A DNA stretch of 58,564 nt, taken from the NCBI GenBank assembly GCA_903826575.1, contig CAIKEU010000008.1, positions 1-58,564 on the forward strand, in the 5' to 3' direction. Within the stretch, counting starts at the first letter, position 1; every line of letters begins with the position of its first letter. The notes under the pieces are model-generated. The model made no database searches and was not told where the DNA came from. It was given only the letters and a program-made list of their open reading frames with translations. The translations under genes and the position numbers were made by a program. Of this stretch, positions 13,207-16,545 are shown one piece after another. Source of the stretch: an uncultured bacterium (GTDB lineage: Bacteria > Actinomycetota > Actinomycetes > S36-B12 > CAIYMF01).

Positions 13207-13207
<1 letters not shown>
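10688..13207 (-). CDS. pheT: Phenylalanyl-tRNA synthetase beta subunit
   Basis: Large subunit of the alpha2beta2 PheRS, 839 aa, full length. The N-terminal tRNA-binding OB fold includes IVVGHVLSIEEL (near residue 47), the central region carries the B3/B4 editing and B5 modules, and the last ~90 residues form the ferredoxin-fold anticodon-binding domain, starting around TFPVAKEDVALVVD. Its ATG overlaps the pheS stop by one base (TAATG), so the subunits are translationally coupled. Confidence 0.97.
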
Positions 13208-14313
<1,106 letters not shown>

Positions 14314-14387: not shown

Positions 14388-15203
14388 TCAGGCCTCGGAG
14401 AGTTGTTCCATAGCGCGCAGGGTGCCATCGCCAAAGGTTGGATCTTCACCACGTGCTGCAAGAGCGGCGGCACGGGCGGCCCGCTTGGAAGCAGCCAGAG
14501 CCTCACCCTCGGCGATCTGTGCCTCGGTCATTGGATAAGACGCGACTTCACCGACACCGTTGTACTTCTCGATGTAGGCATCAAGTTCGGGGCCTGACTC
14601 CCACGACGTGATCAAGCAGTAACGGGGGACATCGCCCTGATGCCAGACAGCGTGGTAGAGACGCTGCGTATCGACGATCAGTTGCGCCCCGGCCGGCAAC
14701 GGGATCCGAGTCTCCGTTGACGGATCGTCCTTATCCCCGCGCAACACCATGACCGAATCGGGATTGTCTGTCAGGTTGAAAAACCCTCGAACAATCCAGC
14801 CGGTGCCCTCTGGGTTGAGCCGGTTGTTATCGTCGCGGTGGAAGTTGTAGAGGGTCTCACCGTACTGATTCGGCAAAAGTTCAATAACACGGCAGCGTCC
14901 GATGTTCGCACCCGGCTCCTCGGCTCGCCGAACCAGGTTCGGCGCCTTTTGCGTATTCGCCGGCACCCACACGCCATCTTTGTCGGTCTTGGGTGGAGTG
15001 TGGTTCCAGAATCCGTCACATTCCATATCTCCGTAGGCCGAAGCCAGCGGCGCGAATCGGGTCTCACCCGAGGACTTCCAATCGACGAATTCGATCTCAG
15101 TCCACTCCTGGGGATCCGCGGCCTGGTCGTACATGTCGAGAACGACATAGCCGTTCTTGCGGAACAACTCGATCTTGGTGTAGCCACCTTCGGTGTACAG
15201 CAT
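14388..15203 (-). CDS. Candidate 2-oxoglutarate/Fe(II)-dependent oxygenase-like protein
   Basis: A 271-aa cytoplasmic protein I do not recognise by name. It shows the metal-binding pattern of 2OG/Fe(II) oxygenases: H122-x-D124 (FHRDDNN), a distal H184 (LYHAVWHQGDVPR) and R194 ten residues later, the usual 2OG-carboxylate arginine position. Beta-rich segments between these fit the double-stranded helix fold. The C-terminal ~50 residues are Ala/Glu/Arg-rich and probably helical. I prefer ATG 15203 because GAGG lies 6 bases before it; ATG 15242 or 15239 is possible. It lies between trmH and pheS on the same strand, so a translation-related substrate is conceivable but unproven. Confidence 0.5.
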   Translation of the reverse strand: MLYTEGGYTKIELFRKNGYVVLDMYDQAADPQEWTEIEFVDWKSSGETRFAPLASAYGDMECDGFWNHTPPKTDKDGVWVPANTQKAPNLVRRAEEPGANIGRCRVIELLPNQYGETLYNFHRDDNNRLNPEGTGWIVRGFFNLTDNPDSVMVLRGDKDDPSTETRIPLPAGAQLIVDTQRLYHAVWHQGDVPRYCLITSWESGPELDAYIEKYNGVGEVASYPMTEAQIAEGEALAASKRAARAAALAARGEDPTFGDGTLRAMEQLSEA

Positions 15204-15313
15204 GTTGGACCTCACATCGTTAGGAGCAGTCCAGACCATCATGCCTCACACCGTCGAAAAGTCAGCGCAGGACAGGCATTCGAGCCTCGTTGCTCACATC
15301 ACATCGGTGAGGC

Positions 15314-16123
15314 TTACCGGTGTGCTCGCGCCGATGCGTAGAGGCAGACCGCGGCGGCGGTGGCCAAGTTTAGGCTCTCGGCGGCCCCATAGATTGGGAC
15401 GCGAACCACGTTGTCAGCAAGAGCCCGTGTGTCGTCCGGCAAACCCCACGCCTCATTGCCGAAGATCCAGACACAGTCGGCGCCGAGTGCACCTTCGTCG
15501 GCAAGCTGATCGAGATCCCGATCGCCAGCGCCATCTGCGGCAAGAATCTGCATTCCCACGGACCTCAGCGCGCCGACGGCAGCATCGACCGTCGGGCCCA
15601 CCACGATCGGCAGGTGGAATACCGATCCAGCTGAAGCGCGAACTGCCTTCGGATTGAAGGGATCGACGCTGGCATCCGAGACGATCACAGCGTCGGCCCC
15701 AGCTGCGTCAGCGCAGCGAATAACGGTGCCAATGTTTCCCGGATCCCGAGCATGTGCGAGCAACACCACAAGTTTCGGCGCGAGCTCAACAACCGCCGCT
15801 AGAGATCGCTCGGGCTTTACGCACACCCCAACCATGCCTTGCGGTGTGATCGTCCCAGCAAGTGACGACACCACTTCGCCCGACGCCCAGATGATCTCAG
15901 CACCAGCGGCTTTCGCAGAATCGACGATATCGCTGTGACGTTGCGCTGCCTCAGTTGTGACGTACAGATCTATCAGCACTCCGGGTTCACGAGCCGCCTC
16001 GCGGCAGGCCTGCGGACCCTCGGCTAAAAAACGACCGTCCCGATCGCGAAAGGCCCGCTTGATCAGCCGACGAGCCGCCGTGACCCGCGGTGAGCGGGTG
16101 GACGTGAGCTCGGAGCCGATCAA
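15314..16123 (-). CDS. SpoU/TrmH-family RNA 2'-O-ribose methyltransferase
   Basis: SPOUT-class SAM-dependent methyltransferase acting on rRNA or tRNA ribose, 269 aa. The three family motifs are clear: RDPGNIGTVIRCADAAG (motif 1), IFGNEAWGLP (motif 2) and VPIYGAAESLNLATAAAVCLY (motif 3, trefoil-knot SAM site). An N-terminal substrate-binding domain (about 1-110) precedes it. TTG at 16123 is supported by GAGG 6 bases upstream. It follows rplT after about 40 bases, the usual actinobacterial order. The exact target nucleotide cannot be told. Confidence 0.92.
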   Translation of the reverse strand: MIGSELTSTRSPRVTAARRLIKRAFRDRDGRFLAEGPQACREAAREPGVLIDLYVTTEAAQRHSDIVDSAKAAGAEIIWASGEVVSSLAGTITPQGMVGVCVKPERSLAAVVELAPKLVVLLAHARDPGNIGTVIRCADAAGADAVIVSDASVDPFNPKAVRASAGSVFHLPIVVGPTVDAAVGALRSVGMQILAADGAGDRDLDQLADEGALGADCVWIFGNEAWGLPDDTRALADNVVRVPIYGAAESLNLATAAAVCLYASARAHR

Positions 16124-16164: not shown

Positions 16165-16545
16165 TTACGCGACAGGCGCGTTGACATCGGCCGGCAGTGC
16201 TGCCTTAGCGATGTCGACGATTGCGGTGAATGCCGCAGCATCGTTGACGGCAAGCTCGGCCAACATGCGACGGTCGACCTCAACACCCGCAATCTTCAGA
16301 CCCTGGATGAGGCGGCTGTACGTCATGCCGTTCAAGCGGGCCGCGGCGTTGATGCGCTGGATCCAGAGCTGTCGGAAATCGCCCTTGCGCTTGCGTCGGT
16401 CGTTGAACGCGTACACACCTGAGTGCGTAACCTGCTCCTTGGCCTTGCGATACAAGCGCGAACGCTGACCGCGGTAGCCAGAAGCCTGCTCAAGAACTTC
16501 ACGACGCTTCTTGTGGGCGTTAACCGCCCTCTTTACGCGTGCCAT
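16165..16545 (-). CDS. rplT: 50S ribosomal protein L20
   Basis: Early 23S rRNA-binding assembly protein of the large subunit, 126 aa. The N-terminal basic extension ([39 protein letters not shown]) and [21 protein letters not shown] are characteristic. A good GGAG precedes the ATG. It is third in the infC-rpmI-rplT operon, where L20 or leader RNA structures often control expression. Confidence 0.98.

Follow-up and report, generated by a model that had tools for sequence, protein, structure and literature searches.

A gene without a family name lies on the minus strand of the window (the whole 58,564-nt stretch of DNA that was analysed), between a gene for an RNA methyltransferase and pheS. 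The locus raised the question of which enzyme class the product belongs to, what it would act on, and whether its place beside translation genes says anything about its substrate.

Gene call and distribution of the family

The minus-strand open reading frame is a genuine gene (Table 1). A longer alternative start at 15242 would give a protein of 284 aa; the start at 15203 was favored because the alignments with the relatives in loci L001, L002, and L015 begin at residue 1. The genome of the window held only one copy of the gene, copy A, and lacked the tandem copy B that is described below. The search for relatives stayed inside the phylum and gave 194 stretches in the species-genome collection; the best 80 of 194 were carried forward as loci.

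Of 396 genomes sampled from the phylum, 19 had a member of the family, as did 93 of 148 genomes of the order of the window (58 of 80 among those at least 90% complete) and 5 of 99 genomes of the order of genome G031. The hosts among the best 80 of 194 loci included Candidatus Nanopelagicales, genera of Microbacteriaceae, and many unplaced actinobacterial MAGs. At the sensitivity used, no relative was matched in phages and plasmids, and none of the 15 and 25 stretches of viral contigs that fitted a peptide pattern encoded one.

Table 1. Features of the hydroxylase locus in window coordinates.
Feature	Position	Strand	Remarks
pheS	13207..14274	-	TIGR00468, 301.2 bits (cut-off 237.45)
Hydroxylase gene (copy A)	14388..15203	-	271 aa plus stop; stop codon at 14388-14390
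C-terminal tail, residues 207-271	14391..14585	-	helix 227-250, variable linker, SEA end (14391-14399)
Codon of R194	14622..14624	-	predicted 2OG 5-carboxylate site; invariant 81/81; +10 from H184
Codon of H184	14652..14654	-	predicted iron ligand; invariant 81/81
Codon of R139	14787..14789	-	predicted substrate-carboxylate site; counterpart of R122 of proline 3-hydroxylase; 101/101
Codon of N127	14823..14825	-	at the site where proline hydroxylases have the amine-binding Glu; Asn in 101/101
Codon of D124	14832..14834	-	predicted iron ligand; invariant 81/81
Codon of H122	14838..14840	-	predicted iron ligand; invariant 81/81; spacing as in PMC9968057 (excerpt)
Codons of R103-C104-R105	14889..14897	-	predicted substrate-carboxylate site; counterpart of R95-x-R97 of proline 3-hydroxylase; R103 and R105 in 101/101
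SpoU-family RNA methyltransferase (labelled trmH)	15314..16123	-	best TIGR00186, 101.5 bits (cut-off 160.15)
rplT (L20)	16165..16545	-	TIGR01032, 148.9 bits (cut-off 65.65)

Overall predicted structure

The AlphaFold2 model, which was built from 51 sequences, was a double-stranded beta-helix with a pLDDT of 89.9 and a pTM of 0.88. The C-terminal helix (residues 227–250) was predicted confidently, and the last five residues fell below a pLDDT of 50. Foldseek gave 230 PDB matches at E ≤ 0.001, and the 50 of these 230 that were listed were all 2-oxoglutarate (2OG) enzymes by title. When the whole model was compared by VIA with L-proline cis-4-hydroxylase (PDB code 4p7x), proline 3-hydroxylase (1e5r), Cpz10 (7v4m), and AspH (5jqy), the Z scores were 14.6, 13.5, 13.2, and 12.3, with deviations of 3.9, 4.8, 2.9, and 3.0 Å over 227, 207, 157, and 156 aligned residues, respectively. 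The 100 matches that reached E 0.001 in the viral fold library included phage proteins of the PF05118 type and the 2OG domains of giant viruses and plant viruses; the best-named one, at E 2.7e-7, was a phage protein titled ‘aspartyl/asparaginy/proline hydroxylase domain’. The double-stranded beta-helix, on which the sequence-only reading had made its claim of an oxygenase depend, was thus given by AlphaFold2 and by the Foldseek and VIA comparisons.

The effect of the tail was examined by predicting the core alone (residues 1–206; pLDDT 85.7). The core was matched to 6n1f with a Z score of 14.5 (3.5 Å, 167 aligned), to PHD2 entries with Z scores up to 13.7, to Pseudomonas putida prolyl-4-hydroxylase (4j25) with 13.2 (3.4 Å, 157 aligned), to cis-4-hydroxylase (4p7w) with 12.9 (2.8 Å, 166 aligned), and to the P. 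putida prolyl hydroxylase complexed with EF-Tu (4iw3) with 12.8. On these scores the P. putida enzyme and cis-4-hydroxylase are level. Because the order of the matches shifts without the tail, the fold fixes the superfamily and not the substrate class, and it cannot separate hydroxylases of free amino acids from those of proteins.

Predicted residues for iron and 2OG binding

Enzymes of the Fe(II)/2OG class use O2 and decarboxylate 2OG to succinate, with the formation of Fe(IV)=O and the hydroxylation of a C–H bond. In the window protein, residues H122, D124, and H184 would hold the iron and R194 would hold the 5-carboxylate of 2OG, judging from their invariance, spacing, and the fold, and the hydroxylase would follow the same course from O2 and 2OG to a hydroxylated C–H bond. 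These four residues had been proposed from their spacing, and the positions were correct. The step of +10 between H184 and R194 is the same as that between H158 and R168 of proline 3-hydroxylase, in the excerpt of PMC9968057, and between H160 and R170 of Cpz10, in the excerpt of PMC9814697.

Their conservation, which had been named as a check, was complete at every depth. All four were identical in 81 of 81 sequences (the window and the best 80 of 194 relatives), in all 21 rows of A2, a diverse alignment (44–87% identity to the window), and in 101 of 101 sequences with 13 tandem paralogues included. In alignment A2, 46 of the 271 positions were invariant, from which the chance of four given positions all being invariant is roughly 0.001 by our own arithmetic with residue types ignored.

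Relationship to PF05118 and the proline hydroxylases

The window protein scored 13.6 bits against PF05118 (Asp_Arg_Hydrox), under the Pfam cut-off of 22.6, and sub-threshold matches of this kind (E up to 1) were also present in 4 of 14 control genomes. At the same limit, 27 of the 51 members of alignment A1 (best 0.0065) and 9 of the 21 members of A2 (best 8.1e-4) matched. PF05118 proteins over the cut-off were found in 4 of 149 genomes sampled from the phylum, and three of these four proteins made up alignment A3. The fourth, in L132, was searched singly and had 4p7w as its best chain (E 0.0018).

The profile–profile comparison of A2 with A3 by hhalign gave a probability of 83% and an E value of 8.6e-6. 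It paired GRCR with GRTR, HxD with HxD, and VR with VR, followed by the His and the Arg, so that the order GRxR, HxD, VR, H, R was common to both alignments. As a profile, A3 matched 4p7w at E 3.9e-9, 1e5r at E 1e-5, and Cpz10 at E 2e-3; the link from A2 to the proline hydroxylases passes through these three PF05118 proteins only. In three stretches of other Actinobacteria (L131:583-2043, L133:1-2001, and L134:1-2001, all on the minus strand), a PF05118 domain and a sulfotransferase-like part appeared by eye to share one open reading frame, and the sulfotransferase-like part in L133 had a weak match to NoeE.

Direct searches of the solved structures by sequence, with the single protein, A1, or A2, gave no usable match. 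Shedu, calmodulin, and a starch-binding protein, which A2 reached at E 0.22–0.59, were judged to be chance matches. The hydroxylase had no match in NCBIfam and one in PHROGs at E 0.099. JmjC_2 (PF08007) had two matches under the cut-off and none over it in the genome of the window, and the control passed the cut-off in 4 of 14 genomes. In the open PMC literature, no paper was found on a 2-oxoglutarate oxygenase in Nanopelagicales, on a 2-oxoglutarate hydroxylase with cysDN in Actinobacteria, or joining asparaginyl beta-hydroxylase, proline hydroxylase, and Actinobacteria.

The identity as a 2OG/Fe(II) oxygenase that had been claimed was supported by the fold, by the invariant catalytic set, and by the profiles that connect the family with PF05118 and the proline hydroxylases, and membership of the Fe(II)/2OG oxygenase superfamily is very likely. 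The hydroxylase belongs to an unnamed family near PF05118 in some Actinobacteria. The family so defined is conserved and chromosomal, and its hosts are little-studied, largely uncultured Actinobacteria and culturable Microbacteriaceae.

Putative substrate binding site

In the excerpt of PMC9968057, H107, D109, and H158 are the iron ligands of proline 3-hydroxylase, and R168 binds 2OG together with H124. The carboxylate of the substrate is placed at R95, R97, and R122 and its amine at D109 and E112, these roles being derived from docking on a predicted model. When the residues were mapped through the A2–A3 hhalign alignment and the A3 profile matches, R103, R105, R139, and R194 of the window protein were the counterparts of R95, R97, R122, and R168, respectively. 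E112 corresponded to Asn127, which was Asn in all 101 sequences. A divergent homologue in L129, outside the 101, had Gln by eye in place of R105. At position 141 the 21 rows of A2 carry Phe (11 rows), Trp (9), or Ser (1); the type II proline 3-hydroxylase has Phe at this place, and His was found in A3 and in cis-4-hydroxylase.

Like their counterparts in the L-proline hydroxylases, residues R103-x-R105 and R139 would most likely clamp a small metabolite by its carboxylate. With this clamp retained and the one for the amine absent, a small carboxylate substrate other than simply L-proline is suggested. The same-place arginines also occur in the three PF05118 proteins and are therefore not specific for amino acids. 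That the window protein is an active Fe(II)/2OG hydroxylase of a small carboxylate-bearing metabolite is, from sequence and model, an evenly balanced proposition. If it is true, the protein adds an enzyme for selective C–H hydroxylation.

An amino-acid hydroxylase proper, acting on L-proline or L-pipecolate, would agree with the three matching arginines, with the top fold match of the whole model, and with the profile link to such enzymes. However, the Glu that binds the amine (E112, and also the residue at His+5 in 4p7w) is Asn127 in 101 of 101 sequences, and the identity to these chains was 14–18% in the structural alignments, so that this substrate is quite unlikely. With the acidic amine-holding residue replaced by an invariant Asn, the protein is probably not itself an L-proline hydroxylase.

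Gene neighborhood

Gene listings by longest open reading frame were dropped because antisense frames dominate at high G+C. They were replaced by our own codon-usage gene caller, which still overlooks genes, among them copy A or trmH at several loci, and the neighbor counts were therefore taken from tblastn on the fetched flanks of the best 80 of 194 loci, some of which lie on short contigs.

The sequence-only reading had placed the gene between a ribosomal-operon RNA methyltransferase and pheS. Both flanking genes were present, but the methyltransferase fell under every NCBIfam cut-off, so that its RNA target, and hence the label ‘ribosomal’, is not fixed. The L20 protein (16168-16545) also had a match to a ‘sunset domain variant’ model of NCBIfam, at 239.5 bits where the cut-off is 375. 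The neighborhood was conserved in part: among the best 80 of 194 loci, tblastn found trmH in 43, rplT in 41, and pheS in 38, but 37 had none of the three, and for 23 of these 37 each flank is 4.9 kb or longer.

Elsewhere the neighbors varied. In L144 the hydroxylase adjoined an ABC-F-like ATPase, and in L103 and L105 it lay near putative FAS II genes (all by eye). In five f30 loci (L110 and L116–L119), the homologue adjoined a methylmalonyl-CoA mutase-like gene, with the mutase domain over the cut-off in L117; no such gene occurred within the part seen of L115 and L121, and L111–L114 were also surveyed in part. Because of these varied neighbors, the place beside trmH and pheS would be a position inherited within one genome group, with no shared task in translation, rather than a shared-function operon.

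Gene order gave no support to the translation-linked substrate that had been suggested, and the translation link is weak. Hydroxylation of a translation component (a ribosomal protein, EF-Tu, or tRNA) would account for the loci that do keep trmH or pheS nearby, for the core matches to the P. putida prolyl hydroxylase alone and with EF-Tu, and for the nearly invariant N-terminal residues 40–80, which would fit a highly conserved partner. It is nevertheless unlikely in view of the 37 of the best 80 of 194 loci without these genes and the other neighbors in other families, the patchy occurrence in the phylum (19/396) with the family missing in 55 of 148 genomes of its own order (some incomplete), and the lack of the winged-helix and dimerisation domains that the excerpt of PMC4295552 gives for a bacterial ribosomal oxygenase. 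Function should not be read from gene order retained in a single group.

Another recurrent neighbor was cysD. In 26 of the best 80 of 194 loci it shared the strand of the hydroxylase and lay 12–168 nt downstream of it; cysN came next in 25 of the 26, and the contig of L024 stops too early to show it. In these loci cysD, with cysNC, stood between the hydroxylase and pheS (e.g., L031:5838-8656 and L023:5801-8604). The variety of arrangements was seen in eight stretches from six genomes (L137–L144): the order in L141 was rplT, B, A, pheS; L139 and L143 had the hydroxylase in the same place as a single copy without cysDN; in L140 and L142 cysDN was on contigs apart from the hydroxylase; and in L137 and L138 cysDN came from genomes without the hydroxylase.

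A role in sulfur metabolism, in which the product is sulfated with PAPS from CysD–CysNC or sulfur is freed from an organic compound, would be consistent with the close downstream cysD, with the CysD and CysNC of L031, which were over the NCBIfam cut-offs, and with the sulfotransferase-like half of some PF05118 proteins. Against it, the genome of the window has the hydroxylase and no CysD was detected in it, by a query that recovers CysD (E 1e-20) from 106 of the 148 genomes sampled in the order; genomes G404 and G413 have cysDN without the hydroxylase; and G399 and G402 have both on separate contigs. This role is very unlikely, and hydroxylation of a small carboxylate-bearing metabolite remained the preferred reading.

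Tandem copy B and the C-terminal tail

Copy B was present in 13 of the best 80 of 194 loci (L002–L009, L011, L019, L027, L031, and L037), where it lay directly upstream of copy A and ended 59–199 nt before it. All 13 copy-B sequences formed one clade (support 0.988), kept the catalytic residues, and ended in SEA.

The same ending was frequent in copy A. Among the 78 complete copy-A proteins of the best 80 of 194 loci, 44 ended in SEA, 22 in PEA, 1 in DEA, and 11 otherwise; the loci carry 332 further well-scored genes, of which 23 ended in EA and none in SEA or PEA. The linkers before SEA or PEA vary in length, and the tail was absent in the nine rows of A2 from another class of the same phylum. 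At the DNA level, the pattern Leu/Met-Ser-Glu-Ala-stop gave 24 matches in 23 of 144 loci, all of them at the ends of copy A or B by position. It gave none in the genome of the window, being a narrow pattern outside which the window's own Leu codon falls.

One idea is that the SEA/PEA ending is a docking peptide. It is a long shot that the anciently duplicated hydroxylases A and B, whose Ser/Pro-Glu-Ala tails sit on linkers of unequal length, dock through these tails to a common partner or carrier, which the pair would modify at two sites. Were this partner part of the translation machinery, the place kept beside trmH and pheS would be accounted for. If the substrate is a macromolecule bound through the conserved tail, this would be a new modification system. 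The family offers a precise set of residues for testing.

Comparison with known 2OG enzymes

The bacterial ribosomal oxygenase YcfD is also a 2OG oxygenase with a double-stranded beta-helix. In the excerpt of PMC4295552 its beta-helix is accompanied by dimerisation and winged-helix domains, which are absent from the window protein (271 aa, a beta-helix and a C-terminal helix). The P. putida prolyl-4-hydroxylase (4j25, and 4iw3 with EF-Tu) and PHD2 share the core fold with Z scores of 12.6–13.7, whereas no sequence match to their chains was found. The PF05118 family (AspH, Cpz10, and the proteins of L131, L133, and L134) has the GRxR strand, HxD, VR, His, and Arg in the same order; the window protein, however, is under the cut-off of that family and has R139-G-F141 where A3 has RxH.

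L-proline cis-4-hydroxylase (4p7w and 4p7x) resembles the window protein in the double-stranded beta-helix and in HxD...H...R(+10), with Z scores of 14.6 (whole model) and 12.9 (core). It differs in its Glu at His+5, which is Asn127 here, and in an identity of 14–18%; a direct sequence match is absent and the two are linked only through A3. The type II proline 3-hydroxylase (1e5r and 1e5s) likewise has E112 in place of Asn127 and an identity of 14–16%, but R95-x-R97, R122, H107-x-D109, H158, and R168 all have counterparts in the window protein, and Phe follows R122 by two residues as it does R139 here.
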